Shown: piece after piece, positions 42,701 through 64,000 of the stretch
How the letters are laid out: each line of letters opens with the position of its first letter
How positions within the stretch are numbered: position 1 is the stretch's first letter
Source: Sulfuriroseicoccus oceanibius
GTDB taxonomy: Bacteria > Verrucomicrobiota > Verrucomicrobiia > Verrucomicrobiales > SLCJ01
DNA: 64,000 bases
Reading direction: 5' to 3'
Assembly: GCF_010681825.2 (NCBI RefSeq)
Contig: NZ_CP066776.1
Span: forward strand, 620,001 to 684,000
Notes under the pieces: generated by a model
What the model was told of the DNA's origin: nothing
The model's database searches: none
Seen by the model: the letters and a program-made list of their open reading frames with translations, nothing else
Made by a program: the position numbers and the translations under genes

Positions 42701-45700
42701 CTCGACTGCTGAGATTGATCACATCTACAGCGAAGGTGTGGCTGGACGAGGCTTCAATGCCGAGCCGGTTCTGATCGACACCAGCTTCGAGGAAGGCGAC
42801 GGCTTCACTGGCTTCACCGCCGGTGGGACATCTGCATTGGGAACGCTTGTAGACAACGCAGGAGTGACTTGGACCGAGGTGGCGGATGTGGACATTTGGA
42901 ACCGCACCGACATTCCACCTGCAGGTGTGCAGGCCTTGACCTTCGGGCTTTCGGCCAACCTCTCCCAGGTGGATGTGGAGATTCCTGGCACCGACCACGG
43001 TGTGGGCACGGTTAGTTTTGACTACGCTTCGTTCTCCAGCAGCAGCAACGCAACGCTGCGCGTGTTGTACAACGACAACACCGGCGCTGGATGGGTGGAA
43101 GCCTGGGCGGGAGAGATTGTGGGGCTTAACCCATCGTTTTCCGACAAGCCGTGGCGCTCGGCCGAGGTGGCGGTGAACGTGCCAGGCAATGTCGACCTCC
43201 GCTTTGAGATGGACGGCGACAAGGGTGGCATGATCGACAACCTGCGTGTGACTGGAGTCGCCATCAATGCGGTCCCAAGCTTCACCAACGATCCGATTGC
43301 CGGCACTGGTGGTCAGAGTGGTGTTGAGTACACCGGGACGCTTGCTGGATCCGCAACGGATGCGGACCCGCTCGATGTGCTGACCTTTAGCAAAGTTACA
43401 GGTCCGGCTTGGTTGGTCGTTTCTGCTGACGGATCGCTCAGTGGCACGCCTGGTCTTGCCGATGTTGGTGACAATGCGTTCACCGTACAGGTCGAGGACG
43501 GCAATGGTGGCTCGGACACCGCGACACTCAATATCTCCGTGGAGTCTGGCCCTGTCACATTGTGGGGTGAGGACTTCGAGGGAGCTGCGGGTTCGACGCT
43601 CGGTGGCAACTGGGTTGAAGTGGTGAATGATTCGCGGATCTTCAACACCGGTAATGGAGCCACGCAGATGTTGATCTCGGTGAGTGCCGGGCAGCCAATC
43701 GGTGTGGTCAATCAGTTGGCCGACACATTTGTCGAGGGTGACCGCTATGAGCTCAAGTGGAACGCATCTCGTGCGGCATCGGCAAACGGTACGTTGCTTT
43801 ACGAAGTGGCGCTGGGAACATGGGATGGCACCACGTTCACACCGCTTGCAGGTGATTCGGGCACGATCGCGGAATTGAACCTGTTTGGGAAAGTGGCCGG
43901 GCCATCGGTTTACTTCACAGCCTCAGCTGCGGAGGCAGGGCAACAGATTGCCGTGCGCCTCGACGTCTTGGCTGGAAGTTCTGACTGGGTCGGATTTGAT
44001 GACATCGAAGTCGTCGGGCTGGGAGCAAACAGTGCTCCATCGTTCTCCGTGGATCCTATTGCCAAAGCGGATGCCACCCAGGATGAGGCCTACACTGCAT
44101 CGATCGGCGCCGATGCCGCTGATGTGGATGCCGGCGACAGCATTGCCTTCTCGAAGGTCAGTGGTCCTGCCTGGCTCAGTGTGGCCGCCGACGGATCGGT
44201 GAGCGGCACCCCAACCAATGGCGATGTAGGGGCGAATGCCTTTACCGTTCGCGCCACCGACGAGGGAGGCCTTACGGCGGATGCGACATTGAACGTAACT
44301 GTGTTGAACGTGAACGACGCGCCGATTGCGAACGACAGCAGCGGGTCGGTTGCGGAAGATGCAGCGGTTGGCACCGTGGTTGCGAGTGTGGCTGCGGCGG
44401 ATATCGACTCAAGTGACACATTGGGCTACGCCATCACGGCGGGCAATGAGTCGGGCGCCTTTGCGATCGACTCGAACGGCAATATCACGACAGCAGCAGC
44501 TCTCGATTTCGAGACCACCGCAAGCTACGCACTGACCGTTACGGTGAGCGACAATGGAACACCTGTTCTGAACGACACTGCGACAGTGACAGTCAACGTG
44601 ACCAATGTGAACGAAGCCCCTGCAGCGAGCGATGGCTCGGGCAGCCTGGCAGAAGACGCGACAGTGGGAACCGCAGTGGCAACCGTTGCGGTGAGCGATC
44701 CAGATGCCGGCGACAGCGCAAGCTTTGCGATCACCAGTGGTAACATCGGCGGTGCATTCGCTATCGATGCAGCTGGTAACATCACCACGGCGACAGCTCT
44801 CGATCACGAAACCGCCAGCAGCTATGCGTTGGTCGTGACTGTCACCGACAATGGTGGCCTGACCGATATCGCAGCGGTGAACGTGAACGTCACCAACGTC
44901 AACGAAGCCCCAGTGGCCAGCGATGGATCGGGAAGCGTAGCGGAAGACGCGGCAGTGGGAACTGTAGTGGCAACCGTCGCTGTGAGTGATCCGGATGCCG
45001 GCGATAGCGCAAGCTTCGCCATCACCAGTGGCAACACCGGTGGTGCGTTCGCAATCGATGCAGCGGGTAATATCACCACCGCAACTGCGCTCGATTACGA
45101 AACCACCAGCAGCTATGCATTGGTCGTGACCGTCACTGATGGCGGTGGCCTGACCGATACCGCGGCGGTGAACGTGAACGTGACCAACGTGAACGAAGCA
45201 CCGGTTGCGAGCGATGGCTCTGGCAGTCTGGCGGAAGATGCAACCGTGGGAACCGCGGTGGCAACCGTTGCGGTGAGCGATCCGGACGCCAGCGACAGCG
45301 CAAGCTTCGCGATCACCGATGGCAACACCGGCGGTGCATTTGCAATTGATGCGGCGGGTAACATTACCACCGCGACCGCGCTCGATTATGAAACCAGCAG
45401 CAGCTATGCGTTGGTCGTGACCGTCACCGACGGCGGCGGCTTGACCGATACGGCGGCTGTGAACGTGAGCGTGACCAACGTCAACGAAGCACCTGTGGCC
45501 AGTGATGGTTCGGGCAGTGTGGCTGAGGATGCGACTGTGGGAACCGCAGTGGCAACCGTCGCTGTGAGCGATCCGGATGCCGGCGACAGCGCGAGCTTCG
45601 CCATCACCAGCGGTAACACCGGCGGTGCATTCGCAATCGATTCAGCAACTGGTGCGATCACCACGGCTGCGGCATTGGACTACGAGACGACCAGCAGCTA

Positions 45701-48647
45701 CACGCTCGGCGTGAGCGTCACCGATGGCGGTGGCCTCAGCGATGCGGCAACTGTTACGATCGCCGTGACCAATGTGAATGAGTCGCCGGTCTTCGCCAGC
45801 GATCCAATCGTAGCTGCCGACGGTTCGACCTTGGCCGCTTACACTGGAACATTGGCGGGCAGCGCGAGCGATCCGGATGCCGGCGATACGCTGAGCTTCA
45901 GCAAGGTCTCGGGACCAGCCTGGCTCTCGGTTGCTACCGACGGTGCGCTCTCGGGAACCCCTGGCGTTAGCGATGCGGGGCTCAATTCGTTCACCGTCGA
46001 GGTGAGCGACGGTAACGGCGGCACGGCTCAGGCAACTCTTGAGATCAACGTGGCAGCTACCAGCGTGGTGCTCTTCGATGACTTCGAAAGCTACGACGTG
46101 GAGAACCCATCTGACTTCTCGGTTGGCGGCACGCCGACAGGAAACTGGACGGCTAGCGACACGGCGTCGAATGCGACCCGTATCTTCGACACCACGAACT
46201 ACGGCGGCACCCGTTTGTGGATCAGTAACGTGGATGGCAGCAGCATCACCAGCTCTGGTGCGACGGTCGCGGAAAACACACATTACACCTTGTCTGCGGT
46301 GATGGTGACTGAGACGGGAACCGCAGGGCGCACGCTGAATGCAACCTACGACGTGCTTGTCGGTCAGGACGCGGCATCGGCCACTAGTATCATTGGTGGG
46401 CCGCAGGCTGTGGTGACCAATGGCGACGCTTGGCAGATTGATGATTCCAAAGAGGATCATGTGTTCAGCCAGAGCTTCCAGACCGGAGCTCTTAACCCAG
46501 GCGATCAGTTGTTCGTGCGCTTCACTCGTGTGGGCGTCGAATCGACCGGTGGTTGGTTCGGTGTGGACGACGTGATGGTCGACACCGTGGGCGCCAACAG
46601 CGCACCAGTAGCAAATGACGCCATCTTCGCTGTGGCTGAAAACGAGGCTGCTGGTACGGCTGTGGGAACCGTGACCGCAGCTGATGCGGATGCGGCCGAT
46701 ACGCTCAGCTACGCAATCACCGCAGGTAACGAAGGTGGTGAGTTTGCCATCGACAGCGCGACCGGTGCGATCACCACGACCGCTGCGTTCGACTACGAAA
46801 CCGCTGCCAGTTATGCGCTGACCGTGACGGTCACCGATGGCAGTGCCGCAACCGACACCGCGGCTGTGACCGTCAACGTGACCGACGTCAACGAGGCGCC
46901 GGTGGCTGAAGACAACAGCGGCAGCCTGGCGGAAGACGCGACAGTAGGTGCTGCGGTGGCAACCGTGGCGGCCAGCGACGTCGATGCCGGATCCGTGCTC
47001 AGCTACGCGATCACCGCGGGTAACGAGTCGGGGGCATTTGCAATCGATGCCGGAACTGGTGCGATCACCACGGCTGCGGCTCTCGACTTTGAGACCACGC
47101 CAAGCTACGCGTTGACCGTCACCGTGACGGATGACGGCACACCAGCACTCAGCGACACCGCTGCGGTGGCTGTGACCGTGACCAACGTCAACGAGGCGCC
47201 GGTTGCCAACGATGGCAGCGGCAGCGTCGATGAAAACGTCAGCGTCGGTACCGTGGTGGCAACCGCAACCGCATCGGATGTCGATGCCGGTGACACGCTC
47301 AGCTATGCAATTACCGCAGGTAATACCGGTGGTGCGTTCGCAATCGATAGCAACAGCGGTGTGATCACCACAGCCGGAGCGATCGACTACGAAGCGGTGA
47401 GCAGTTATGCGCTGACCGTGACGGTGACCGATGCCGGTGGCCTGAGCGACACCGCTTTGGTGAGCGTGAGCGTGAACGACATCATCGAAGTAACCGCGCC
47501 AGTGGTTGCGACCGGGGTTGCCAGCGCGGTGACCCAGACATCGGCCGATGTGGCCTACACCATCAGTGATGATGGTGGTGACGCACCGGCAGTGACTGTT
47601 TACTACGGTGAGGCCGACGGTGGCCAAGTGGCTGGCAATTGGAGCAACAGCATCGCCCAGGGCAACCAGGCGGCAGGAAGCTACAACGCCGCGCTTACTG
47701 GGTTGACCGCAGGAACCACCTACTACTTCACCGTGCAGGCCAGCAACAGTGCCGGCACCGTGTGGGGCAGCAGTGGATCGTTCACCACCGTGGCGGATAC
47801 GTCGCCGAAGTTAGTGCGCACCACCGTCAGTGCGGTCAGCAGCAGCACTTGGACGACCGTGGATCTCGGTCAGAGCTACAACTCGGCAGTGATCGTGGCG
47901 ACTCCGATCTATCCAAACACAAGCACACCACCAGTGGTGACCCGCATCCGCAATGTCAGCGGCAGCAGCTTCGATCTCAAGATCGACCGCGCCGACGGAC
48001 TGACCGGTGAGGTAACCATCGACGTGTCGGTGATCGCTGTGGAGGAAGGGGTCTACACCCAGGCCACCGACGGAGTGACCATGGAAGCGGTGAAGTACAC
48101 CTCGACGGTGACTGCCGAGAATAACAGCTGGGTGGCGGAAGCCTGCGCGTACCAGAACAGCTACACCAATCCGGTGGTCGTTGGTCAGGTGATGAGCGCG
48201 AACGACGCCAGCTGGTCGGTGTTCTGGAGCATGGGTGACTCGCGTCAGAACCCAGTGGATGCCTCGAACTTGAACGTAGGCAAGCACGTGGGTGAAGATC
48301 CGAATGCGACCCGCGCTGATGAGACCATTGGTTACATCGTGATCGAGTCCGGCAACGGAACGATCAACGGAGTGGCCTACGAGGCCGGGCTGGGTGCGGA
48401 TAACGTGCGCGGATTCGATAATAGCTCGACACCATACACCTATGACTTGAGTGGCACACTGGGCAGCGCGAGTGCAGCGGCCCTGAGCATCTCGGGTATG
48501 GACGGTGGTGACGGAGCGTGGGCGGTGCTCTCGGGTTCCAATCCGATCACGCCGACCACCCTGGGCTTGCACGCGTTGGAAGACCAGATGGGAGACAGCG
48601 AGTTGAGGCACACCACCACGCAAGTGGGGTACCTTGTGTTCGAGTAA
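39783..48647 (+). CDS. Giant secreted metzincin-like/cadherin-repeat protein (2954 aa)
   Basis: The signal peptide is residues 1-36 (cut after AMA). A pro-like region and a metalloprotease domain (about 200-370) follow, with HEVGHNWRCQH at 298-308. This matches HExxHxxxxxH of metzincins, but the usual Gly is Arg; a Met-turn candidate (HGEMNTQ) follows. Next come LamG-like domains (about 450-660 and 775-985) separated by an FN3-like segment. Then alternate dystroglycan-type cadherin (CADG) and jelly-roll-like domains (about 990-1510). Eight cadherin-like repeats carry LDYE, DxDAGD and DVNEAP calcium motifs; four are nearly identical tandem copies. A 271-residue CADG plus jelly-roll module interrupts them at about 2001-2271. 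An FN3-like domain (about 2573-2671) and a 282-residue C-terminal domain end the protein. It is probably a cell-surface or released protease/adhesin. There is no LPXTG or PEP-CTERM tail. Confidence 0.85.
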   Translation: MTRFASSCSDVVCSTIRTFSASVVGFAVCLVAPAMAQLPETFQVTVDKGGGEMVELNLHKHTIRSTDCRILSWDSTNGYVVEHSPTNPGLPARTYRGHLTENPNHVVFAVINEDNTLQAEVHDGSGRLWTISGDDVTAELGNGGSVAPAPAALAAGGGTPVAAGLPGQYLPPVELYRAHGVEDVPSQFFDRNGQSVVQTMVWLEHQWNIFDYFNARDAKLSMELTEVIIRKEQFYFPTAGNAGQFNSMLKTEWDAQGQNARGFIHSWFPYNFTYAGGYASGNEFYGPNLSVSVNALYHEVGHNWRCQHYFYGRETMTGSHPSHGEMNTQRVLYTRQIQIDQNDGIELLTNYRTNVHPRAYTDVATTMVDTAVVLLPLANDYDANGDALSIRSHTTTTAQGGTVTADGDMLTYTPAAGYVGKDVIVYEVEDAPGLYTRGVIHVEVINQGLAAHWNMEDTSGTSASDASGNGHSGAVVGTDFVSGSVQGPVGSALALGSGDYVIGNNSNLIEGYTTDYPLDAPASNFFDPMDQSFTAATWVKLDAASTSATVLSKINAANLGYKITANAGSGFTATVRVWDGLQGQYSVSSGTPLATDAWYHVAMVIDRSDDTLRLYVNGEEVGSAASLPSGFFVFNGREDFKIGGGGAMAVDETSLYSKALTPAEVQALHGVGEVPAAPIQPAPNALGQSLATTLEWLSGQSSYQHDVYFGTDAAAVEAATTASPEYMGRQSATTFDPGALSPSTNYFWRIDEVDGGTLIPGTVWSFSTAANGLVNGLVLHLTMDDADVQVANGVTHTFDDIALPASDFESVDAVAGAPGAIGQAVDLSSSADALRSYATNPVSRPVNGGLTVSFWINTTSTQNGGEKVFDMGGAVFVRFYNGDLQPVFDGSSGGAQIFDANINDGQWHHVVAHNDGAGTTTMWVDGVAIGTQSETIYDIASLGREVSIGATYNSTGENLEALFDDFAVWQRALSTAEIDHIYSEGVAGRGFNAEPVLIDTSFEEGDGFTGFTAGGTSALGTLVDNAGVTWTEVADVDIWNRTDIPPAGVQALTFGLSANLSQVDVEIPGTDHGVGTVSFDYASFSSSSNATLRVLYNDNTGAGWVEAWAGEIVGLNPSFSDKPWRSAEVAVNVPGNVDLRFEMDGDKGGMIDNLRVTGVAINAVPSFTNDPIAGTGGQSGVEYTGTLAGSATDADPLDVLTFSKVTGPAWLVVSADGSLSGTPGLADVGDNAFTVQVEDGNGGSDTATLNISVESGPVTLWGEDFEGAAGSTLGGNWVEVVNDSRIFNTGNGATQMLISVSAGQPIGVVNQLADTFVEGDRYELKWNASRAASANGTLLYEVALGTWDGTTFTPLAGDSGTIAELNLFGKVAGPSVYFTASAAEAGQQIAVRLDVLAGSSDWVGFDDIEVVGLGANSAPSFSVDPIAKADATQDEAYTASIGADAADVDAGDSIAFSKVSGPAWLSVAADGSVSGTPTNGDVGANAFTVRATDEGGLTADATLNVTVLNVNDAPIANDSSGSVAEDAAVGTVVASVAAADIDSSDTLGYAITAGNESGAFAIDSNGNITTAAALDFETTASYALTVTVSDNGTPVLNDTATVTVNVTNVNEAPAASDGSGSLAEDATVGTAVATVAVSDPDAGDSASFAITSGNIGGAFAIDAAGNITTATALDHETASSYALVVTVTDNGGLTDIAAVNVNVTNVNEAPVASDGSGSVAEDAAVGTVVATVAVSDPDAGDSASFAITSGNTGGAFAIDAAGNITTATALDYETTSSYALVVTVTDGGGLTDTAAVNVNVTNVNEAPVASDGSGSLAEDATVGTAVATVAVSDPDASDSASFAITDGNTGGAFAIDAAGNITTATALDYETSSSYALVVTVTDGGGLTDTAAVNVSVTNVNEAPVASDGSGSVAEDATVGTAVATVAVSDPDAGDSASFAITSGNTGGAFAIDSATGAITTAAALDYETTSSYTLGVSVTDGGGLSDAATVTIAVTNVNESPVFASDPIVAADGSTLAAYTGTLAGSASDPDAGDTLSFSKVSGPAWLSVATDGALSGTPGVSDAGLNSFTVEVSDGNGGTAQATLEINVAATSVVLFDDFESYDVENPSDFSVGGTPTGNWTASDTASNATRIFDTTNYGGTRLWISNVDGSSITSSGATVAENTHYTLSAVMVTETGTAGRTLNATYDVLVGQDAASATSIIGGPQAVVTNGDAWQIDDSKEDHVFSQSFQTGALNPGDQLFVRFTRVGVESTGGWFGVDDVMVDTVGANSAPVANDAIFAVAENEAAGTAVGTVTAADADAADTLSYAITAGNEGGEFAIDSATGAITTTAAFDYETAASYALTVTVTDGSAATDTAAVTVNVTDVNEAPVAEDNSGSLAEDATVGAAVATVAASDVDAGSVLSYAITAGNESGAFAIDAGTGAITTAAALDFETTPSYALTVTVTDDGTPALSDTAAVAVTVTNVNEAPVANDGSGSVDENVSVGTVVATATASDVDAGDTLSYAITAGNTGGAFAIDSNSGVITTAGAIDYEAVSSYALTVTVTDAGGLSDTALVSVSVNDIIEVTAPVVATGVASAVTQTSADVAYTISDDGGDAPAVTVYYGEADGGQVAGNWSNSIAQGNQAAGSYNAALTGLTAGTTYYFTVQASNSAGTVWGSSGSFTTVADTSPKLVRTTVSAVSSSTWTTVDLGQSYNSAVIVATPIYPNTSTPPVVTRIRNVSGSSFDLKIDRADGLTGEVTIDVSVIAVEEGVYTQATDGVTMEAVKYTSTVTAENNSWVAEACAYQNSYTNPVVVGQVMSANDASWSVFWSMGDSRQNPVDASNLNVGKHVGEDPNATRADETIGYIVIESGNGTINGVAYEAGLGADNVRGFDNSSTPYTYDLSGTLGSASAAALSISGMDGGDGAWAVLSGSNPITPTTLGLHALEDQMGDSELRHTTTQVGYLVFE
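44616..45782 (+). repeat. Four tandem near-identical cadherin repeats (about 291 bp each)
   Basis: Units begin at 44616, 44907, 45198 and 45489, each about 97 codons. They share runs such as DPDAGDSASFAIT and GGAFAIDAAGNITTATALD. DNA similarity is high enough to suggest recent duplication and possible copy-number change by recombination. Confidence 0.85.
45783..46595 (+). repeat. 813-bp CADG/jelly-roll module, copy 1 (first giant)
   Basis: The 271 codons encode a CADG domain (DPIVAADGSTLAAYTGTLAG...) followed by a jelly-roll-like domain opening with LFDDFESYDVENPSDFSV. The same module, exactly 813 bp, recurs at 54416-55228 and 56405-57217 in the second giant gene. Confidence 0.88.
47799..48644 (+). 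repeat. Shared C-terminal 282-residue domain, copy 1
   Basis: Residues 2673-2954 run from SPKLVRTTVSAVSSSTWTTV to the terminal GYLVFE. The same domain, of identical length, ends the 3531-residue protein at 59009-59854. Internal landmarks are YNSAVIVATPIY, VTRIRN, VEEGVYTQ, NPVVVGQVMSAND, SVGKHVGED-like and TIGYIVIE. It is beta-rich. I cannot name the family, though similar tails occur in other marine bacterial surface proteins as far as I recall. Confidence 0.85.
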
Positions 48648-48684
48648 AACTTCTTAATCCCCCGGTAATCCCCCTGCCTAATTC

Positions 48685-48724
48685 ACCCGCCACTGGAGCA
48701 ATCCGGTGGCGGGTGATTTTTTTG
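48685..48724 (+). terminator. Terminator of the first giant gene
   Basis: CACCCGCCACTGG pairs with CCGGTGGCGGGTG around a 6-nt loop, followed by ATTTTTTTT. It is closely related to the terminator at 59884. Confidence 0.9.
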
Positions 48725-48749
48725 GAGCGGTGCAACTGGTGGTGGCTTT

Positions 48750-48995
48750 TGGAACCGCAGATGCCGCTGATTTGCGCGGATAAGGGGACGTCGCAATGGC
48801 GCGTTTTTGGCTGGAGTGACGGTGTCCTCACCGTCTTGGGTGGACGTTGGAGCTTGTCGTTCTTCGGGAGCTTTGGGTCTTTGCGTGAGCCTTCTCTGGT
48901 TGAGCTACCACGGAGAGCACGAAATACACGAAGAAGGGGGAGGCGGGGCTGGGGGCAACGACATGAGTGTCGTTGGTCCATCGGGAAATTGGTAG
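48750..48995 (+). repeat. Composite intergenic repeat, copy A
   Basis: Ordered blocks: TTTGGAACCGCAGATGCCGC, the GACGGTGTCCTCACCGTC hairpin (48812-48835), CTTTGGGTCTTTGCGTGAG (48871), ACCACGGAGAGCACGAA, and the hairpin CAACGACATGAGTGTCGTTG followed by GTCCATCGGGAA (48957-48994). The same order recurs at 59938-60192 and largely at 60249-60494. Confidence 0.75.
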
Positions 48996-49261
48996 GTGGG
49001 CGTGTTGCGATGGGGCGATCCCCGAGCTCTTCGCAAACGCCGAGATCCTCAAGCCTGCGGTTTCCTAGGAGTGGGTGATGAGGGGTGGGGCTAGCGGGAG
49101 TATTGTGTTGGTAGAAGAGTGGCAAATATTTCAAATTTGCAGGTGCAAAATAATGAAATGCTGCAACCTTCCACGCGATTGTCCCTGAGGTGTTATCTAA
49201 CGTGTTTAGATGGCATCTTTTGCCCCCGCAACAAACCAACTCCAACAAATAGCAACAACCT

Positions 49262-52200
49262 ATGAAGGGCTCCAAAGTTCTTTCATCGATCGCTCGTGTC
49301 GCGATCGGATCATTCGCACTAGCCACGATGGCGCCGCTGCAGGCGAGTAATGACAACGACTGGTGGTCGATGGGCCCCGTTGGTGGATCGTTCCAGGTTC
49401 AGTCGGGCAAGTCATACATTGCAGTGCGTGAAGTTGAGGCGGGAAGTCCTGCCGAGCAGGCTGGAATCCAGGTGGGTGATTTCATCATGGGTGCGTTTGG
49501 CGAGCGATTTGCCGCTACCGGGCCATCGACCAGTGGCTACAAGGGGGCGCCGCAGGGGTTTGCCGAGGCGATCGAGCGGGCGGAGTCGGGTGACGGGTTG
49601 ATGCCGTTGCAGTTGTTGCGTCCCGGGGTTGGGATGGTGGAAGTTACAGTGAGTTTGCCGGCAGCGGGGGCGTTTGGTCCGGCTTATCCACTTGGGAGTG
49701 AGAAGTTTGATGCGCTTTACGAGCGTGCTGCGGGCAAGATTCATGAGAACATCGCAGGATCGGCGAATGGGGATGTGGGCTACATGACTGGCTTTTATGG
49801 CATGATCCTGCTGGCGGATCCGAATTGGAACGAGACCAGCGGGGACAAGCCGTACCGTGTGTCGATCAACAAGATGCGCGACCGTGCGGTAACAGTTCTG
49901 GAAGGCGCGATTTTGAACCCAGTGGAGGCGACCAACCTGGATGGCACGCCGAACGATGGATCGGAGGAAGATAGCAACCCGGATGACCAGAGCCATGTGG
50001 GGTCGGGATTGGAGAACTGGGGGCTTTCCACGTGGGCGATGTTCCTTGCGGAGTACCGCGCGAAGACGGGCGACACGTCGGTGGATGAAACGGTGCAGCG
50101 TGCGGCGGATTTGCTGGCGGCTCGGATCCAGACGTGGCAACAGCCTCCGTATGGAGGGTCCAATGGTCCTACCAAGGTTGGCCTTATGGGGCACGGCGGT
50201 GTGGGCGGTGACTACCCGCACATCGGCTATTCAGGGATTAACATTATCAACGCGCATGCAATGACCGCGTTGGCGATGCTAAAGCAGGCGGGTGCTACCA
50301 TTGATGATGCCAAGATGATGGCCAGCTGGAACTGGGTGAAGAGCACGACCACGCTCAATGGCGGTGCTGAAGATGGTAACATCGGCTACGCGTGGCGCCA
50401 GGGAGGCTATGACTCCGGCGGACGTACCGCAGGGGTGGCGTATGCGATGTCGGTTTACGGTGGGCTTAATGCCGCAGACGAGGACGTGCTGACGCGGATG
50501 AAGGACTATTTGTCGCGCCAGTGGCAGCGGATGCAGCACACGCACGCCTACACTGTGGGGGGGACTCAGTTTTATCAGTTTGTGTTGCCGTATCTTCCGG
50601 ACCGCGACCAGCGCTTCATCATGGAGAACCAGCGTATGTTCTACCATTTCCATCGTACGACAGGTGACGCGCTGCGTTACTTCGGTGGGCGTGAGAACAA
50701 CGGAGGCGATGGCTATGTGAACACAGGGCGCGTGGCGTATGCCGGTGTGGCCATGGCCAAGGCCGTTGCGAGCGGAAATCTGGCAACGGTTGCCAGCATT
50801 GACACCTCCCGTATTCACGCGGACTTCCAAAGCCCGTATCTGACGTGGCCGACGCTCGACGCGCGTCGCGTTGAGATCGATACGACCTCACAGGCATTCA
50901 CTGTCGATATCACCGATTATCAGGGGACGTCGCTTCAGCCGGCGGATTACACGGCGAACTGGACGCATGTTGCCGGCTCGGCAAGTGTGAGCTTTTCCTC
51001 GACCAACACGGCGAGCACTACGGTGAGCTTCCCGCAGGACGGGACGTACCGGATTCAGCTCGAAGTCGTCAAAGGCGCCTACACGCTGACCGAGCCGATT
51101 GATGTGGTGGTCGACACCTCCGAGGATCCTGACGGTTATATTTTGGGTAAAGCTCGCCAGCGCATCTACACCGATATCTCCGGAGCAAGTGTGAGCGACC
51201 TGACCGGCAACGCGAAGTATCCGAATGCGCCGGACACCACAGCGACCGTGACTGCGCTCGACACCGGTAGTTTGGGTAACAGCTACGGTCAGCGTATCAG
51301 CGGCTACTTGATCCCGCCAACGACGGGCGCATACACATTCTATGTGGCTGGTGATGACTCGGTGGAGTTCCGGCTGAACAGTGGAGGAACCGATCCTGCG
51401 GGAGCGACGGCGATTTGTTCGTTGAACGGATGGACCAGCCGATACAACTGGACGGCCTATGCGTCGCAGACCAGTGCGGCGGTGACATTGACCGCAGGCG
51501 AGATGTACTACTACGAGTTGCTGCACAAAGAAGGCGGCGGCGGCGACCACGCGGCGGTGGCTTGGAGTGGTCCTGGCATTTCCGAGCCGACTGTGATTTC
51601 CGGTGACGTGTTGGCTGTGGCGGATACGGCGGAAATTGTGGCGCAACCGGAGGAGCAGAGCACGACTTTGGGCGGCTCTGTGACGTTTGATATTGCAGTC
51701 GAGGGCGATGGGCCGTTCGTGTATGAGTGGATCTCCGGGGAGACTTCGTTTGGAGTGAGTTCGTCCTCGAGTCTGAGCTTTGAGAATGTGGGGGCTGGCC
51801 ATGCAGGTGATTACTATTGCGTGGTGACATCGCCTGATGGTGCGCTCACGTCGGTTACCACAACACTTACGATTTCCGACGCTGGAGTGCTTACCAGTGG
51901 CGGATTGTGGCGTGATCAGTTTGATAGCATCGGTGGTGGTTCGATTGCCACTCTGACCGGTAATAGCAACTATCCTCGTTTCCCAAGCTCGGGTGGAGTG
52001 ATCGCCAACGCCGAGAGCGAAAGTGGGATTGGTGATTCGTACGGTGCCCGTTGGTCAGGTTGGGTGCGTCCGGATGTGACGGGGGCGTACTATTTCTACA
52101 TCACATCGGATGATGCGTCCGAGCTGTGGTTGTCCACCGACGATCAGCCAGCCAATAAGGTGCAGGTTGCGAGCGTTGGTGGCTTTACCGGAGCGCGAGC

Positions 52201-55200
52201 ATGGGCGTCGGGAGGCAAGTCGGGGGCAATTAACCTGGTGGCGGGTGAGCGTTACTATATTGAAGTGCTGCACAAGGAAGGTGGCGGAGGTGACCACTGT
52301 GCGGTGGCATGGCGCAAGCCAGGTGATGCGGCACCCGATAATGGAGATGCTCCAATCGGAGGCGAGTATCTTGAGTATTTCACTGGTGGTGTGCAGGGGG
52401 CGTCGGTGGTGATGCCTCCGGCTTTCGATCGCGCGATTTATTCCATGAGCGTGGCGGAAAACGCGGGCAGTGGTGTGTCGGTTGGTGTGGTCAATGCCAA
52501 CGACACCGGAGGGAATACGCCGGTGGCATACGCAATCACTGGAGGCAATGGCGACGGTTTGTTTGCCCTTGATGCAACCAGTGGCGAGATCACGACGCTC
52601 GGTGATTTGGACTACGAGTTGCAGGATGCCTACTCGCTGACCGTAAGCGCAACTAACAGTCTGGGGCTTATCAGTCAGAGCGTGGTCGAGATCGAAGTGC
52701 TCAACCGTTTGGATGGTATCAGCAGCTGGGAAGTCGGCGTGGACGATGGCACGACGGCTGTGATCAAGGATACCACTGGCTTGGCGGGCAATACCACGAC
52801 AACGGTGGATCTGTCGTCAATCAGCGGCGATGCGACTTACGAGTTCTTGATCGATGCGGAGGACAATGGTCAATCTGCGTTGAGTGTGTTGGCTGCGAAT
52901 GGCTGGAGCTTGCGATTCGAGCAGTGGAGTAACACAGGACGCCTCGGGATCACGCAGTCCGGTGTGGCGGATTGGCGATTCGCGGCCGAGAGCGGGCAGT
53001 CGGTAGCGTCACCGTACGGGAGCCTCGTGCACTTGGTTTTCGTAGTCGATACCGTGGCCGGAGAGACCCGTGTGTATGTGGATTCTGTGTTGGTGGGCCG
53101 TCTGAACCGAACGCCAAATCTAGCTCATGCCGCGGCGACTCTCGGGAATTCCGCGCTGCGCACCGACGCGGAACCTGGGATTCATGGATTTGCGGCATAT
53201 AACAGTGCGCTCGATGCCGAAGAAATCGTTACTCACTATGAGTACTGGCGTGGGGATGTTCCGAACTATGCCCCGGTTGCCAACGATGCAACGTTCGAGG
53301 TCGATGAAAAGCAGCCTGCGGGTATCGTGCTGGGTGCTGTTACCGCCAGCGACAGCAATGTTGGTGACGTGTTCACCTTCGCGATTACTGCTGGTGATCC
53401 GGCTGGCGGGTTTGCGATTGACCCGGGGACGGGAGAGATCAGCACTGCTGCAGAATTGAACTACGACGTGGCAAACCAGTACGTGCTGGGTGTGACGGTC
53501 ACCGATCTGGGTGGTCTGACCGGCGTTGCAAACATTACCGTTAATATTAACAACCAGCCGGGTGGTATTTCGGATTGGGCTGATGCCGTGGATACCGGAT
53601 CGGACGTGTTGATCCGACGCACGGCAGCGCTGGGTGGCGACTCGACGACGACCGTGGATCTGTCGGCAATTTCGGGTGATGCCACTTATGAGTTTGTGGT
53701 GGATTCCGTGAACTTCGGGCAGACATGGGGCAACCTCTTGGCTGCTAATGGTTGGCAGTTGCGCCTCGAGCAGTGGCACAATACCAACGAGCTCGGTGCG
53801 ACCTTGAGGGGACGTGCTGACTGGAGGCTGACTGCTGAGAGCGGTCAATCGGTGGCAAGTCCGTATGGGCGAGTGGCACACATCACCTATGTGGTAGACA
53901 CTGCGGCAGATGAGTTGCGCGCTTACGTTGACGGTGTGTTGGTAGGACGTTTGAACCAAGTACCAAACCTCACTCATCCGGAGGCGGTACTGGGATCCTC
54001 AGGCATTCGCAATGACAGCGAGCCGGGTATTCTGCTCTTTGCTGCCTACAATAATGCGTTGAGTGAAGCAGAGATTGCTGCGCATAAGGATGCTTGGTTG
54101 GGCACTGAATCTGCGAACCTGGAGCCATCGGTGAGTGCCGCAGCCTTCACGGTTGCTGAGAATCTGGCAGCAGGTGCGGTCGTTGGATCAGTGGAAGCGT
54201 CCGATCCGAATGCCGGTGACGTGTTGAGTTACGCGATCTCCGCGGGCAATGAGTCCGGTGCATTTACAATCGACCCTGCGACTGGTGCGATCAGCACAAC
54301 AGCGGGGCTGGATCACGAAGCAGCGGGGGCATACGTCCTGACTGTGACTGTCAGCGACAATGGTGGGCTCAGCGACTCGGCAAGCGTGGCGGTTTCAGTG
54401 ACAGACTCCAACGATGCGCCGGTTTTTGCCAACGATCCGATCGTGGCGGCCGACGGGATGACGCTCGAAGTGTACAGCGACACCCTGGCGGGAAGTGCTT
54501 CTGATCCGGATGCGGGCGATGCATTGAGCTTCAGCAAGGTCAGCGGCCCTGAGTGGCTCGTTGTGGCTGCCGATGGCGTCCTTTCAGGAACTCCAGCCAT
54601 CCGTGATGCCGGGCTGAACACATTCACCGTTGAGGTTGCCGACGGCAATGGCGGTGTGGCCCAGGCTGCCGTGCAGATCAATGTGGTTCAGGGTAGCGTC
54701 ATTTTGTTCGAGGACTTCGAAGCCTACGATGTGGAGAGCGCGTCCGACTTCTCGGTGGCTGGAACTTCGACCGGTAACTGGACCTCTAGCAACACGGGAT
54801 GGAACGCGACGCGGATCTATAACACGTCGAACTACGGTGGATCGCGTCTGTGGATCAGCAATGTCGATGGCACGAGCATCACCAGCGCAGGAGCGAATGT
54901 TGCTGAGAACACGCATTACACGTTCTCGGCGGTGATGGTGACGGAAACCTACGCTGGTGGCCGCACGTTGAACGCGACCTACGATGTGCTCGTCGGTCAG
55001 GATGCGGAGTCGGCAGTGAGTATCATTGGCGGACCGCAGGCAGTGGTTACCCATGGCGACGACTGGCAGACACCGGATTCGAAGGAAGATCATGTGTTCG
55101 GTCAGAGCTTCCAGACCGGATCGCTCAACCCAGGCGACAAGTTGTTTGTGCGTGTCACCCGTGTGGGGACGGCGTCGGGCGGCGGGTGGTTCGGATTGGA

Positions 55201-58200
55201 CGACGTCCTGGTCGATACCGTTGGGCCAAACAGCGCACCGCAAGTGGACGACGTGACCTTGGCTGTGGCGGAGAACGCAGAGGCCGGCGCCGTGGTGGGA
55301 ACCGTGGCAGCAACCGACGCCGACGCTGGCGACGTGGTCAGTTATGCAATTACCGCCGGCGACGAAACCGGTGCGTTTGTCATCGACAGCTCTACCGGTG
55401 AGATCACGACAACGGCTGCATTGGATTACGAAGCGACTGCAAGTTATGCGCTGACCGTGACGGCGACCGACCGCAGCGGCGAGTCCGGTGCGGCAGTGGT
55501 GACGGTGAATGTGACCAACGAGAACGAAGCTCCGGTGGTGGTCGCTGGCAGTGCCTCGGTGAACGAAGACGCGAGCATTGGTTCGGTGGTGACAACCGTG
55601 GTGGCATCGGATGTTGATGCGGATGACGTGCTTGGCTACGCCATCGTTGATGGCAATGCCGGTGGTGCGTTCGCGATCGATGCGGCAAGCGGTGAGATCA
55701 CCGTGGCCGGCGCGCTCGATTTCGAGACACTCGAAAGTTACACCCTGACCGTGCGTGCAACGGATGCCGGCGGACTCAGCGACAGCGCGGCAATTGCCCT
55801 GGCGGTCGTCGATGTGAACGAAGCTCCGGTGGCCCAGGACCAGAGCGGCTCGGTTGCTGAAAATGCAGCCGTTGGCACAGCGGTTGCTGCAGTAGTAGCA
55901 AGCGATGTCGATGCCAACAGCGAGTTGAGTTATGAGATCACCGGCGGCAACACCGGCGGTGCGTTCGCGATCGATGCTGCGGGTCAGATCACCACGGCTT
56001 CGGCGCTCGATTTCGAATCGACATCAAGTTATGCGCTGACCGTGACCGTGACCGATGACGGCGGGTTGACCGATACTGCGGCGGTGGCCGTGGCGGTGAC
56101 CGATGTCAATGAGGCGCCGGTTGCGGTGAATGGCTTCGGCAGTGTGGCGGAAAGCGCCGAGGTCGGGTCCGCTGTGGCGACCGTGGAGGTGAACGATCCG
56201 GATGCAGGCGATGCCTTGAGCTTTGCGCTCATCAGCGGCAACACAGGCGGCGCGTTTGTGATCGACGCCGACGGTGTGATCCGCACGGCAACTGCTCTCG
56301 ATTTCGAAACCACATCGAGCTACACGCTCGGCGTGAGCGTGACCGATGCCGCGGGCCTGAGCGATACGGCCAGCGTGGCGGTAACGGTGACCGATAGCAA
56401 TGACGCGCCTGTGTTTGCCAACGACGTGATCGTCGGTGCCGAGGGGATGACCCTTGAGGCCTACAGCGACACCTTGGCAGGAAGTGCGGCCGACCCGGAT
56501 GCCGGCGCGGTGCTGAGCTTCAGCAAGGTTTCCGGTCCGGCGTGGCTGGATGTGGCTACCGATGGTACGCTTTCGGGAACCCCTGCCATCCGTGACGCGG
56601 GCATCAATACGTTCACCGTCGAGGTGAGCGATGGTAACGGCGGCACGGACCAAGCTACGTTGGAAATCAACGTGGTGGCCGGTAGCGTTATTTTGTTCGA
56701 AGATTTCGAATCCTACGACGTGGAGAATCCATCCGACTTCTCGGTTGCTGGTATTCCAACCGGAAACTGGACCGCGAGTAACACAGGCGCGAACGCAACG
56801 CGGATCTACGACACCTGGAATTACGGGCGCAGCCGCTTGTGGATCAGTTATGTCGATGGCACCAGCATCACCAGCGCGGGTGCGAAGATCACCGACAACA
56901 CGCACTATGAGTTGTCGTTGGTGTTGTTGACCGAGACCTACGCTGCGGGACGCACGCTCAATGCGACTTACGATGTGTTGGTCGGTCAGGATGCGGCGTC
57001 GGCTGTGAGTTTGATTGGCGGACCGCAGGCGGTCGTTACCAATGGTGATGACTGGCAGACGCCGGATTCGAAAGAGGATCATGTGTTCACCCAGCGATTC
57101 CAGACCGGTGAGCTGAACCCAGGCGATCAGTTGTTCGTGCGCATCTCGCGTGTGGGCACGGCATCCGGTGGTGGTTGGTTCGGCGTCGACGACGTGGTCG
57201 TGGACACGATTGGGCCGAACACGGCACCGCAGGTGGACGACGCGGTCTTCGCTGTGGCGGAAAATAGCGAAGGCGAGACGCTCGTCGGTACCGTTAATGC
57301 AGCTGACTCGGACGAAGGGGATGCGCTTGGTTATGCGATCACCGCTGGCAATGAGACTGGTGTGTTTGTGATCGACAACGTGACCGGTGCTATCACCGCA
57401 ACGTCGGCATTCGACTACGAGTCTGCGACGACCTATCCGCTCGAGGTGAGGGTGACCGATGAAAGCGGAGCGACCGCGACCGCTGTGGTGACCGTCAACG
57501 TGACCGATGTGAACGAAGCACCAGTGGCAACCGCTGCTGAAGGCTCCGTCGCGGAAGATGCGGCCGTGGGTGCCGCGGTGGCTGCCGTTGAGGCGGCGGA
57601 CGTCGATGCCAATACGACGCTCAGTTACGCGATCACGGCGGGTAATGAGTCGGGTGCGTTTGTAATCGACGCGGCGGGTCGCATTACCACCGCAGCGGCA
57701 CTCGACTTCGAAACCACGCCAGCTTACGCGCTGACCGTGACGGTGAGCGATAATGGTACACCTGCACTCAGCGACACGGCTGATGTGTTGGTGGCGGTGA
57801 CCGACATCAATGAGGCTCCAGTGGCCGAAGATGCGAGCGGTAGCGTGGCTGAAAACGTGGCTCCGGGCACCGTGGTGGCAACGGTTGCTGCCAGCGATGT
57901 CGATGCCGATGACGCTCTGAGCTATGCGATCACCGGAGGGAATACCGGCGGCGCGTTTGCGATCGACAGTGCCAGCGGTGCGATCACCACGGCGGCAGCG
58001 ATCAACTACGAAGCGGTTGCTGGTTATGTGCTGGATATCACGGCGACCGATGCTGGTGGTCTTGCGGATACTGCGGCGGTTACCGTTGCCGTGGTAGACG
58101 TGAACGAAGCGCCAGTGGCAGTCGACGCGGTGGGATCCATCGCGGAAGATGCGGCGATCGGAAGCTCGGTGGCTACTGTTGAAGCAGCGGACGTCGATGC

Positions 58201-59857
58201 TGGAACCAGCCTCAGCTATGCGATCACGGCGGGTAATGAGTCGGGTGCATTTGCAATCGATGCGGCGGGTCACATCACCACCGCAGTAGCACTCGACTTC
58301 GAAACCACTCCAGCGTACGCGCTGACCGTGGCGGTGACCGACAACGGCACACCAGCACTCAGCGACACGGCTGAGGTGTTGGTTGCGGTGACCAACATCA
58401 ACGAAGCTCCAGTGGCCGTGAATGGCAGCGCTCGCGTGGATGAAAATGTCGAGCCGGGCACTGTGGTGGCAACCGTTGCCGCCAGCGATGTCGACGCCGA
58501 TGACACCCTGAGCTTCGCAATCACAGGTGGTAACACCGGCGGCGCATTCGCAATCGACAGTGCAAGCGGCGTGATCACCTCGCTCGGCGCGATCGACTAC
58601 GAGGCGCTGAATGCCTATGCATTGACGGTTCAAGTGACTGATGCCGGCGGCCTCAGCGATTCGGCAATCATTGCCGTGAACGTGAACGACATCCTCGAAG
58701 TCACCGAACCAGAGGTGGCCACCGGTGCGGCCAGCGCGATCACAATGACCACCGCCGAGGTGGCGTACAGCGTGACTGATGATGGCTTGGAGGCACCTGC
58801 GATCACGCTCTTCTACGGTGAGACCGACGGTGGCCAGGTTGCTGCTGATTGGGAAGCCAGCGTGAGCCTGGGCAACCAGGAGATCGGTGAGTACAGCTCG
58901 TCGTTGACCGGCTTGATCGAGGGCTCCGCGTATTACTTCACCATTCGCGCCAGCAACAGTGCCGGCACCGTTTGGGGTAGCGTGGGAACCTTCAACACCG
59001 TGGCGGATCTGTCGCCAAAACTGATCCGCACCAGCGTCAGTGCGGTGAGTAGTTCGGCCTGGACCACGGTGGAGCTCGGCAAGCGCTACAACTCGGCGGT
59101 GATCGTGGCGACTCCGATTTACTCGGGTGAGCATCAGGTGCCGGTGGTGACCCGCATCCGCAACGTCGAGCGCAGCAGCTTCGAGCTGAAGGTGGATCGA
59201 GTCGACGGTCTGACCGACGAGGTCAATGTGGATGTCTCGGTGATCGTGGTCGAGGAGGGTGTCTACACCCAGGAGACCGACGGTGTGACACTTGAGGCGG
59301 TGAAGTTCACTTCCACGGTGACCGCTCACGACAAGAGCTGGGTGGCCGAGGCACGCGAGTACCAGAACCGCTACACCAATCCGGTGGTGGTTGGTCAGGT
59401 GATGAGCGCCAATGATTCGGAGTGGTCGGTGTTCTGGAGCATGGGCACACACCGCATGAAGCCGGCGGATGCCGCCAACCTGAGCGTTGGCAAGCACGTG
59501 GGTGAAGACGCGAACACGGAGCGTGCCGACGAGACCATCGGTTACATTGTGATCGAAGCGGGCAATGGCACGATCAATGGCGTGGCCTACGAGGCAGCGC
59601 TCGGTGCCGACACCGTGCGTGGCTTCGGTAACGATGACATGCCATTCAGCTATGATCTGAGCGGATCACTCGGCAGCGCGAGCACCGCCGCGTTGAGCAT
59701 CTCGGGAATGGACCATACCGACGGAGCGTGGGCGGTGCTTTCGGGAGCGTCGCCAATCACTCCGACCGCGCTGGGCCTGCATCTGGTCGAAGATCAGATG
59801 GAGGACGATGAGATGCGACACTCGAAGGCGCAGGTTGGTTACCTTGTGTTCGAGTAA
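49262..59857 (+). CDS. Giant secreted PDZ/alpha-alpha-barrel/cadherin-repeat protein (3531 aa)
   Basis: The signal peptide is 1-28 (cut after LQA). A PDZ domain (about 40-135) contains VREVEAGSPAEQAGIQVGDF. A helical region (about 150-510) looks like an alpha/alpha barrel, as in DUF6288-type proteins: SGLENWGLSTWAMFLAEY, GYSGINIINAHAMTALAML, GYAWRQGGYDSGGRTAG. Two PA14-like domains follow (about 627-775 and 878-1020, both with HKEGGGGDH), split by an Ig-like domain. Then come twelve cadherin-like repeats, two concanavalin/LamG-like domains (after repeats 1 and 2), and two copies of the 271-residue CADG/jelly-roll module. An FN3-like domain and the shared 282-residue C-terminal domain (3250-3531) end the protein. 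PA14 and LamG domains suggest glycan binding. Enzyme activity of the barrel is unproven. It has its own terminator. Confidence 0.85.
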   Translation: MKGSKVLSSIARVAIGSFALATMAPLQASNDNDWWSMGPVGGSFQVQSGKSYIAVREVEAGSPAEQAGIQVGDFIMGAFGERFAATGPSTSGYKGAPQGFAEAIERAESGDGLMPLQLLRPGVGMVEVTVSLPAAGAFGPAYPLGSEKFDALYERAAGKIHENIAGSANGDVGYMTGFYGMILLADPNWNETSGDKPYRVSINKMRDRAVTVLEGAILNPVEATNLDGTPNDGSEEDSNPDDQSHVGSGLENWGLSTWAMFLAEYRAKTGDTSVDETVQRAADLLAARIQTWQQPPYGGSNGPTKVGLMGHGGVGGDYPHIGYSGINIINAHAMTALAMLKQAGATIDDAKMMASWNWVKSTTTLNGGAEDGNIGYAWRQGGYDSGGRTAGVAYAMSVYGGLNAADEDVLTRMKDYLSRQWQRMQHTHAYTVGGTQFYQFVLPYLPDRDQRFIMENQRMFYHFHRTTGDALRYFGGRENNGGDGYVNTGRVAYAGVAMAKAVASGNLATVASIDTSRIHADFQSPYLTWPTLDARRVEIDTTSQAFTVDITDYQGTSLQPADYTANWTHVAGSASVSFSSTNTASTTVSFPQDGTYRIQLEVVKGAYTLTEPIDVVVDTSEDPDGYILGKARQRIYTDISGASVSDLTGNAKYPNAPDTTATVTALDTGSLGNSYGQRISGYLIPPTTGAYTFYVAGDDSVEFRLNSGGTDPAGATAICSLNGWTSRYNWTAYASQTSAAVTLTAGEMYYYELLHKEGGGGDHAAVAWSGPGISEPTVISGDVLAVADTAEIVAQPEEQSTTLGGSVTFDIAVEGDGPFVYEWISGETSFGVSSSSSLSFENVGAGHAGDYYCVVTSPDGALTSVTTTLTISDAGVLTSGGLWRDQFDSIGGGSIATLTGNSNYPRFPSSGGVIANAESESGIGDSYGARWSGWVRPDVTGAYYFYITSDDASELWLSTDDQPANKVQVASVGGFTGARAWASGGKSGAINLVAGERYYIEVLHKEGGGGDHCAVAWRKPGDAAPDNGDAPIGGEYLEYFTGGVQGASVVMPPAFDRAIYSMSVAENAGSGVSVGVVNANDTGGNTPVAYAITGGNGDGLFALDATSGEITTLGDLDYELQDAYSLTVSATNSLGLISQSVVEIEVLNRLDGISSWEVGVDDGTTAVIKDTTGLAGNTTTTVDLSSISGDATYEFLIDAEDNGQSALSVLAANGWSLRFEQWSNTGRLGITQSGVADWRFAAESGQSVASPYGSLVHLVFVVDTVAGETRVYVDSVLVGRLNRTPNLAHAAATLGNSALRTDAEPGIHGFAAYNSALDAEEIVTHYEYWRGDVPNYAPVANDATFEVDEKQPAGIVLGAVTASDSNVGDVFTFAITAGDPAGGFAIDPGTGEISTAAELNYDVANQYVLGVTVTDLGGLTGVANITVNINNQPGGISDWADAVDTGSDVLIRRTAALGGDSTTTVDLSAISGDATYEFVVDSVNFGQTWGNLLAANGWQLRLEQWHNTNELGATLRGRADWRLTAESGQSVASPYGRVAHITYVVDTAADELRAYVDGVLVGRLNQVPNLTHPEAVLGSSGIRNDSEPGILLFAAYNNALSEAEIAAHKDAWLGTESANLEPSVSAAAFTVAENLAAGAVVGSVEASDPNAGDVLSYAISAGNESGAFTIDPATGAISTTAGLDHEAAGAYVLTVTVSDNGGLSDSASVAVSVTDSNDAPVFANDPIVAADGMTLEVYSDTLAGSASDPDAGDALSFSKVSGPEWLVVAADGVLSGTPAIRDAGLNTFTVEVADGNGGVAQAAVQINVVQGSVILFEDFEAYDVESASDFSVAGTSTGNWTSSNTGWNATRIYNTSNYGGSRLWISNVDGTSITSAGANVAENTHYTFSAVMVTETYAGGRTLNATYDVLVGQDAESAVSIIGGPQAVVTHGDDWQTPDSKEDHVFGQSFQTGSLNPGDKLFVRVTRVGTASGGGWFGLDDVLVDTVGPNSAPQVDDVTLAVAENAEAGAVVGTVAATDADAGDVVSYAITAGDETGAFVIDSSTGEITTTAALDYEATASYALTVTATDRSGESGAAVVTVNVTNENEAPVVVAGSASVNEDASIGSVVTTVVASDVDADDVLGYAIVDGNAGGAFAIDAASGEITVAGALDFETLESYTLTVRATDAGGLSDSAAIALAVVDVNEAPVAQDQSGSVAENAAVGTAVAAVVASDVDANSELSYEITGGNTGGAFAIDAAGQITTASALDFESTSSYALTVTVTDDGGLTDTAAVAVAVTDVNEAPVAVNGFGSVAESAEVGSAVATVEVNDPDAGDALSFALISGNTGGAFVIDADGVIRTATALDFETTSSYTLGVSVTDAAGLSDTASVAVTVTDSNDAPVFANDVIVGAEGMTLEAYSDTLAGSAADPDAGAVLSFSKVSGPAWLDVATDGTLSGTPAIRDAGINTFTVEVSDGNGGTDQATLEINVVAGSVILFEDFESYDVENPSDFSVAGIPTGNWTASNTGANATRIYDTWNYGRSRLWISYVDGTSITSAGAKITDNTHYELSLVLLTETYAAGRTLNATYDVLVGQDAASAVSLIGGPQAVVTNGDDWQTPDSKEDHVFTQRFQTGELNPGDQLFVRISRVGTASGGGWFGVDDVVVDTIGPNTAPQVDDAVFAVAENSEGETLVGTVNAADSDEGDALGYAITAGNETGVFVIDNVTGAITATSAFDYESATTYPLEVRVTDESGATATAVVTVNVTDVNEAPVATAAEGSVAEDAAVGAAVAAVEAADVDANTTLSYAITAGNESGAFVIDAAGRITTAAALDFETTPAYALTVTVSDNGTPALSDTADVLVAVTDINEAPVAEDASGSVAENVAPGTVVATVAASDVDADDALSYAITGGNTGGAFAIDSASGAITTAAAINYEAVAGYVLDITATDAGGLADTAAVTVAVVDVNEAPVAVDAVGSIAEDAAIGSSVATVEAADVDAGTSLSYAITAGNESGAFAIDAAGHITTAVALDFETTPAYALTVAVTDNGTPALSDTAEVLVAVTNINEAPVAVNGSARVDENVEPGTVVATVAASDVDADDTLSFAITGGNTGGAFAIDSASGVITSLGAIDYEALNAYALTVQVTDAGGLSDSAIIAVNVNDILEVTEPEVATGAASAITMTTAEVAYSVTDDGLEAPAITLFYGETDGGQVAADWEASVSLGNQEIGEYSSSLTGLIEGSAYYFTIRASNSAGTVWGSVGTFNTVADLSPKLIRTSVSAVSSSAWTTVELGKRYNSAVIVATPIYSGEHQVPVVTRIRNVERSSFELKVDRVDGLTDEVNVDVSVIVVEEGVYTQETDGVTLEAVKFTSTVTAHDKSWVAEAREYQNRYTNPVVVGQVMSANDSEWSVFWSMGTHRMKPADAANLSVGKHVGEDANTERADETIGYIVIEAGNGTINGVAYEAALGADTVRGFGNDDMPFSYDLSGSLGSASTAALSISGMDHTDGAWAVLSGASPITPTALGLHLVEDQMEDDEMRHSKAQVGYLVFE
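54416..55228 (+). repeat. 813-bp CADG/jelly-roll module, copy 2 (second giant)
   Basis: The 271 codons open with APVFANDPIVAADGMTLEVY and end with DDVLVDTVG. Same length and layout as 45783-46595 and 56405-57217. Confidence 0.88.
56405..57217 (+). repeat. 813-bp CADG/jelly-roll module, copy 3 (second giant)
   Basis: The 271 codons open with APVFANDVIVGAEGMTLEAY and end with DDVVVDTIG. It lies 1989 bp downstream of copy 2 in the same gene, in the same frame. Confidence 0.88.
59009..59854 (+). repeat. Shared C-terminal 282-residue domain, copy 2
   Basis: Residues 3250-3531 run from LSPKLIRTSVSAVSSSAWTT to the terminal GYLVFE. It aligns without length change to residues 2673-2954 of the first giant. 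Confidence 0.85.
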
Positions 59858-59883
59858 CCCGTCCGGTCGGGATTCCCCCAATC

Positions 59884-59924
59884 ACCCGTCACTGGAGTAA
59901 TCCGGTGGCGGGTCTTTTTTTTTT
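59884..59924 (+). terminator. Terminator of the second giant gene
   Basis: ACCCGTCACTGG pairs with CCGGTGGCGGGT, followed by C and a T10 run. It is nearly the same sequence as the terminator at 48685. Confidence 0.92.
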
Positions 59925-63900: not shown

Positions 63901-64000
63901 GATGGATCGGTGGTTGTGTCGCGATTCGCCACACCGGTGGGAGGTGTGGAGGTCGATGACCCTCGTCAGGGCGTGCAAGTTGAGGGCGTCGGTCGAATGT
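60979..64000 (+). CDS. Verru_Chthon cassette protein A-like, partial (runs off the window)
   Basis: The frame is open from ATG 60979 to the window end (at least 1007 residues) and has no stop inside the window. The N terminus, NRRRGLALVTVLALMSLLIV (from residue 9), is a short basic segment followed by one TM helix, resembling pseudopilin or PilX-like starts. The next region (LEAQANAKLALARALGELQ) is helical. The body is soluble and extracytoplasmic, with SSVVVLWNPYNVPLELP, RFEPGQFRIFSKKG and VNDGLWDSWFASSF. These match what I recall of Verru_Chthon cassette protein A, the first gene of a four-gene cassette (A-D) whose other members have prepilin-type N termini. B-D would lie beyond the window. 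No Shine-Dalgarno is seen. Confidence 0.75.
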   Translation, partial: MKTQRLQVNRRRGLALVTVLALMSLLIVLLVALLQLTTTDQAASSQSRNQLEAQANAKLALARALGELQEQMGPDQRVSSFATVLDANEETPEIDGVGRQRLLGVWDSWGDWLNADYRDVDGADLGIEDTYDRGRSRMFRRWLVSAPLEDAEALASVDYAKNAAPSDDNYQTLLGQGSVVRPEDEVRAYLEDTGAGGRVAWWIGGRNQAVDVQSFGEKPKRAAAGDVELASGDRGVLAVNTVPGFENLPEDESILEKLIDQRQIELASVDREAMREKYFDVAEGTTGVLADVRWGGLKKDLNLLFEASSMPREFTRSGKTAAPGPRPLSSDLRGYGPKLANRAFSSFEQMREFYRSYKKSGQTPLEWEGDAPETPLYLGHNGTYGHAADQGYRRTPVVAKHYSVYSLFTTRSSADNSPNQGDRANLFQNDIVFSSVVVLWNPYNVPLELPSGYMLTYTLPYKILPSSYVGYRDGRQLNANWIRLAQGANYNQMGRDFAAPIRSNDGQPIRFEPGQFRIFSKKGLSGYGGNVLNEALTPGYDPTGAFGQRMRVYSNKPAGDSNRWGVAVRLDPWWNTDGTAYYWGGNPGAFGNLLWHPNRRENYTMGTMYDWTGPDNDYVEISGTANNAAEVANYDFNVRDRVQPFCVIGITLKSAYESDYGAVGQRVKDYRSKNWLQSLNATSMQKMNVNYRSADVREMQRLDSGYRLHFTEVNSVNDVSKLFNVDGATQELSSLDVDQLVYSVPTLEVPTVPITSIAGFAGMRLTPGWYRIPNGGGPMNAMSRFNDNTEAYNSGVPGIGVGNSFAQPTIRGSRVYQYHDVSKLYPSSDSGGRGGQASTDSNAFSDYWDHALLVNDGLWDSWFASSFVDATRPTGGNDRELRAWATRFFEDGEPLPYTGYEPSPAAEATPQQAITDVLGNEGYEVVARYLLNQGAFNVNSTSEDAWFALFSGLNKRDVAFRDGSGSLAIRETDNDGSVVVSRFATPVGGVEVDDPRQGVQVEGVGRM

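Follow-up and report, generated by a model that had tools for sequence, protein, structure and literature searches.

Among described proteins, the closest to the element studied here are the H-type lectins (PF09458), represented by the Helix pomatia agglutinin (HPA), the Helix aspersa agglutinin, the discoidin lectin domain and SLL-2, and the tips of phage fibres and tailocins that share their sandwich fold (the C-terminus of AP22 gp53, the R1/R2 pyocin foot and the C-terminal domain of LKA1 gp49). Structures of SLL-2, HPA, discoidin, pyocins and phage tips have been placed together in a single lectin-like fold; several are trimers, and polysaccharide is bound via a network of variable loops (PMC6363177, PMC6116203). 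In these known systems the trimers are built from separate chains, the phage and tailocin tips being homotrimers on fibres or tailspikes to which each chain contributes one domain. A second comparison is with the C-terminal domain (CTD) of type IX-secreted proteins (TIGR04183), a sorting signal. We analyzed a window of Sulfuriroseicoccus oceanibius DNA (the whole stretch of 64,000 nucleotides, positions 620,001 to 684,000 of contig NZ_CP066776.1; the genome is one contig of 3.50 Mb) that encodes two giant proteins, genes A and B, with a common 282-residue tail. Each tail consists of three homologous repeats assigned to the H-type lectin fold family, and we consider it likely that it forms a self-contained module in one chain that binds glycans and tethers secreted enzymes, the 3' gene block around it having been inherited.

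Three repeats in each tail

The tails of genes A and B align without a gap over all 282 residues, as the first-pass annotation of this stretch had claimed, and are 76% identical in pairwise alignment. With the gene A tail as tblastn query, the gene B tail was recovered from the genome at E 1.1e-139, which excludes chance likeness. Two further copies were found in the same genome, at C1:2021982 (97% identical to the gene A tail) and C1:3051662 (68%), and these form the tips of gene C, a PDZ-type giant of 2979 aa at 2.02 Mb (L005), and of gene D, a metalloprotease-like protein of 1319 aa at 3.05 Mb, respectively. All four copies lie at the extreme C-terminus and end in GYLVFE, on proteins of 1319–3531 aa. 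As a shared 282-residue domain, the tail stands insofar as the match is gap-free, while its proposed upstream boundary merely marks the end of the preceding FN3-like domain, and homology extends in both directions.

Within the tail, the three homologous repeats span ~90 residues each and close with the strands VSVIAVEE (repeat 1), GYIVIE (repeat 2) and its equivalent GYLVFE (repeat 3). Using an alignment of 24 family members, hhalign joined repeats 1 and 2 at 98.2% probability, 1 and 3 at 96.7%, and 2 and 3 at 97.3%, against at most 0.3% for column-shuffled control alignments. The window clade alone aligns only repeats 2 and 3, and these moderately (69%), so that the three-fold nature is seen mainly via relatives. 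Units hold three repeats, whether they occur singly or in tandem, and this grouping speaks for the set of three as the working unit, in line with a single chain standing in for the homotrimer that known H-type lectins form.

Fold and family of the repeats

Direct scans of the tails against Pfam, NCBIfam and PHROG returned nothing useful (Glu_synthase and AglA matches at E 0.01–0.03, below cut-off, were discarded as chance), and a search of one tail against PDB sequences gave no match. Evidence for the family came from relatives, with PF09458 H_lectin found in 14 of the 24 members fetched with the same profile and with relatives joined to the window tails by one alignment scoring 31–64 bits on this model (57 for L024, 64 for L074), above its curated cut-off of 24 bits. 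PF21882, the model of the AP22 gp53 C-terminus, matched 10 of the 24 members (best E 2.1e-7), and a single-repeat profile searched against PDB sequences had the Helix agglutinins as its best matches (E 0.02). The motifs W..V.F...P.V and RV.NVT..GF are common to the tail family and the H-type lectins, whereas the window tails differ from the latter in carrying three repeats per chain, with insertions in repeats 2 and 3, and in being attached to giant secreted enzymes. A PF09458 profile search of the S. oceanibius genome gave no match, its controls being silent as well.

Fold prediction yielded a confident AlphaFold (AF2) model of the window tail (predicted local distance difference test, pLDDT, 93.7; predicted template modelling score, pTM, 0.92) that matches a characterized lectin fold. 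Foldseek matches spanning one repeat of this model included SLL-2 (prob 0.97, 92 columns), AP22 gp53 (0.80), LKA1 gp49 (0.72) and the R-pyocin fibre feet (0.44–0.85), and the model of the relative L024 (pLDDT 89.6, pTM 0.90) matched R2 pyocin, discoidin II, gp53, HPA and SLL-2 at prob 0.98–1.00. From these models, an H-lectin beta-sandwich is well supported in the window tail and, more strongly, in L024, and the high pTM suggests a fixed packing of the three repeats. The top whole-model matches for the window tail (APCbeta, arabinofuranosidase) were rejected for low template modelling (TM) scores, large root-mean-square deviations and spurious long alignments.

Separately, the model of a viral 784-aa protein in BFVD (UPI001E6AE1CA_1) matches the whole triple unit (TM 0.80, 295 columns), and A4ZRC7 (Syn5 tail fibre) was noted beside it. 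Scans of viral contigs found no relative of the tail, and tblastn against phages gave no match.

Position of the unit and the shared 3' block

The first-pass annotation had preferred to see in the tail a type-IX-like sorting domain or an outer-membrane anchor. A C-terminal sorting or secretion signal of this kind would be recognized by machinery dedicated to export or attachment, and the tail resembles the type IX CTD in its C-terminal position and beta-rich character; moreover, all four S. oceanibius copies and those of the close relatives L067, L068, L069, L092 and L093 end exactly at the stop codon, and most carriers have signal-peptide-like N-termini. Against this idea, the unit is not always C-terminal: among 40 open reading frames (ORFs) with a complete unit, it ends within 10 residues of the C-terminus in 13 (both window genes, L005, L006, L067, L068, L069, L078, L080, L081, L088, L092 and L093) and is internal, in tandem or N-terminal in 27. 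For example, the subtilase L008 has an internal unit, L071 has one after a sulfatase and 141 residues short of the protein end, L007 has three tandem units, and the verrucomicrobial L074, with a DUF1800 domain at its C-terminal end, has two tandem units directly after the signal peptide. The two-unit architecture of L074 recurs, with similar C-terminal ends, in L072, L073, L075, L095–L099 and L103.

The phylogenetic spread of the unit likewise counts against a sorting signal, as haloarchaea carry it at either end of the protein. On plasmids of Haladaptatus and Halocatena (L109, L110, L111), S8 peptidases (subtilases) bear the unit at the C-terminus and one Halocatena GINT1_N-like protein bears it at the N-terminus; the public record already names the Halocatena protein "H-type lectin domain-containing protein". 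In these proteins the three-repeat unit can be followed across most of the 282 residues and ends in similar closing strands (GYLVLE, GYFVID), but they differ from the window tails in sequence (~25–29% identity) and in the domains to which the unit is joined. Their presence suggests that the unit either passed between bacteria and haloarchaea or is of old origin.

As to the sorting machinery, the type IX secretion tail profile TIGR04183 (Por_Secre_tail), which detected its positive controls, matched neither the tails nor anything else in the S. oceanibius genome and gave one borderline match across 18 carrier genomes, while searches for the SprA translocon had no match, but none in the control genomes either. 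PEP-CTERM tags were found on 40 ORFs of the genome, which makes it probable that an exosortase-type sorting system is present, separate from the giants. Neither giant is among these ORFs, and, as had been noted at first pass, neither carries such a tag at its C-terminus; both end in GYLVFE without a transmembrane segment or basic tail.

The common C-terminal placement has another explanation in the DNA around the tails. Upstream, genes A and B also share FN3 and cadherin repeats (2 kb of their 3' part being ~75% identical in DNA). Their homology does not end at the stop codon but goes on into a terminator and flank that are nearly identical, so that descent suffices to explain the shared C-terminus, without any positional constraint. 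The terminator-like stem is present at only three places in the genome, after genes A, B and C. The 3' block of gene A matches gene C (~2.019–2.023 Mb) at ~92% DNA identity over 3.7 kb, starting inside the cadherin repeats, despite unrelated heads (metalloprotease-like versus PDZ); genes B and C have the same head type, yet their matching stretches are only ~75% identical. From these identities we infer an exchange or duplication of the 3' block across genes that differ in head type, and the sequence pattern points to recombination of head and stalk within the cadherin repeats. The block (cadherin repeats, FN3, tail and terminator) would thus have been duplicated and recombined between paralogues via the repetitive cadherin region, and the uniform placement in this genome would be inherited. 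Contradicted by phylogenetic spread and by position and fold match, the latter two named at first pass as grounds for rejecting it, the sorting-signal idea appears highly improbable to us, and the evidence favours the reading first offered as its alternative, a lectin-like binding domain.

Proposed glycan binding and the architecture of genes A and B

Partner domains of the unit comprise M60, S8 and M12-like peptidases, sulfatase, G8/CEMIP, WbsX with CBM96, GINT1_N and DUF6288. Where the 5' end is intact, nearly all carriers have a start that resembles a signal peptide, as judged by a simple heuristic rather than a trained predictor. We propose that these proteins would be exported via the ordinary N-terminal signal peptide, and that three repeats of the H-type-lectin (discoidin-lectin) fold, fused in one chain most likely as a pseudo-trimer, bind glycan probably through their strand-connecting loops. 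The module may thereby keep secreted multidomain enzymes (metallopeptidases, M60, S8, sulfatase and DUF6288 proteins) attached to polysaccharide or glycoprotein, whether as substrate or as surface; in this picture the cadherin/FN3 array is the stalk and the tail the binding tip. In contrast to the phage and tailocin tips, the three domains sit here on one chain of signal-peptide-bearing cellular proteins.

Alternatively, the lectin fold could bind the producer's own lipopolysaccharide (LPS), capsule or other envelope glycan and so act as a cell-surface retention domain. Discoidin and HPA bind glycans with this fold, as do LPS-recognizing pyocin and phage fibres (PMC6363177, PMC6116203), no other anchor was seen in the sequences of the two giants, and their long cadherin stalks would suit surface display. 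However, substrate targeting accounts at least equally well for the tandem copies and for the sulfatase, M60, S8 and hyaluronan-type domains to which the unit is fused. Archaeal carriers lack LPS, which also counts against surface retention, and we regard this role as somewhat unlikely.

Several observations weigh against a glycan-binding lectin module. The window tail copies have no H_lectin match at the PF09458 cut-off, so that their predicted assignment goes through relatives and the modelled fold; the window model gives weak Foldseek E-values (E 0.11 for SLL-2), probably an effect of a target with a single domain covering just a third of the query; and the window copies, unlike HPA, have no counterpart of the W83-H84 loop pair. 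The A and B tails differ more often in loops than in strands (45/141 loop versus 22/141 strand; odds 2.5, p 0.002), which agrees with variable binding loops without being a specific sign of them, as loops vary faster in most proteins. The missing W83-H84 pair would equally suit a protein–protein or structural capping domain that uses the H-lectin fold without binding sugar. Since the sugar sites of this fold have little common residue pattern (PMC6363177), the absent HPA residues say little, and several of the partner domains act on glycans or glycoproteins; we therefore hold a non-glycan role to be unlikely and retain the glycan-binding tether as our reading.

The two giants themselves (Table 1) have unrelated N-terminal parts, as had been claimed, gene A bearing a metalloprotease-like HExGHN....H motif and gene B a PDZ-DUF6288 head. 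Gene A runs from a signal-like N-terminus and this motif through 2 LamG domains, cadherin/Big_9 repeats and an FN3-like domain to the triple tail; its protein has no Pfam peptidase match at E ≤ 0.01, and Reprolysin matches occur in the carriers L080 and L093. Pfam domains of gene B are PDZ, DUF6288, PA14 and cadherin repeats, followed by the triple tail. The next ORF downstream (window 60979–63999) has a pilin-like N-terminus and resembles Verru_Chthon cassette protein A and GspK weakly, with scores below threshold.

Table 1. Coordinates of the two giant genes, their tails and associated features in the window.
Feature	Position	Strand	Details	Basis
Gene A, giant secreted protein	39783..48647	+	2954 aa	ORF/translation, Pfam, signal heuristic
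Zn-metalloprotease-like motif, gene A	40674..40706	+	HEVGHNWRCQH, residues 298-308	Sequence motif
3' block, gene A	44967..48716	+	~3.7 kb plus terminator	BLASTN, sliding identity, flank comparison
FN3-like domain, gene A	47520..47762	+	Directly upstream of tail; fn3 residues 2580-2660, Pur_ac_phosph_N 2584-2669	Pfam
Triple H-type-lectin-like domain, gene A	47799..48644	+	282 aa, ends GYLVFE	Translation without stops
Repeat 1, gene A tail	47805..48074	+	Tail residues 3-92	hhalign between repeats, column-shuffled control
Repeat 2, gene A tail	48075..48368	+	Tail residues 93-190	hhalign between repeats
Repeat 3, gene A tail	48369..48644	+	Tail residues 191-282, ends GYLVFE	hhalign between repeats
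Terminator-like stem-loop after gene A	48683..48716	+	Same sequence after genes B and C	Flank comparison
Gene B, giant secreted protein	49262..59857	+	3531 aa	ORF, translation, Pfam
DUF6288 region with PDZ-like start, gene B	49418..50707	+	Residues 53-482	Pfam
Triple H-type-lectin-like domain, gene B	59009..59854	+	282 aa, ends GYLVFE	Translation without stops
Repeat 1, gene B tail	59015-59284	+		hhalign between repeats
Repeat 2, gene B tail	59285-59578	+		hhalign between repeats
Repeat 3, gene B tail	59579-59854	+		hhalign between repeats
Terminator-like stem-loop after gene B	59883..59913	+	Homologous to that of gene A	Flank comparison

Taken for the family, the analysis puts a module of presumed glycan binding, open to experiment, in the place of a supposed secretion signal, and it widens the range of the H-type lectin fold to include large secreted enzymes in Verrucomicrobiota and Planctomycetota. 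In titles and abstracts, the few papers in the library that mention both such lectins and these phyla describe no H-type lectin domain in Verrucomicrobiota or Planctomycetota proteins. The novelty is moderate and lies, within a known fold family, in the three fused repeats, the giant enzymes and a clade that current Pfam and NCBIfam models miss. More speculatively, and with some doubt on our part, the fused chain could be an obligate pseudo-trimer, a module for glycan targeting that is widespread, though unnamed, in Verrucomicrobiota, Planctomycetota and haloarchaea; it would recognize a composite glycan through three non-equivalent sites and move among giant enzymes via cadherin-repeat recombination. 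The shared 3' block shows a way in which giant proteins rich in repeats can exchange their catalytic heads while keeping stalk and binding tip in common, and a single-chain triple H-lectin, if true, would offer a trivalent binder that is ready for use, as well as a marker with which to find glycan-targeted peptidases and sulfatases.

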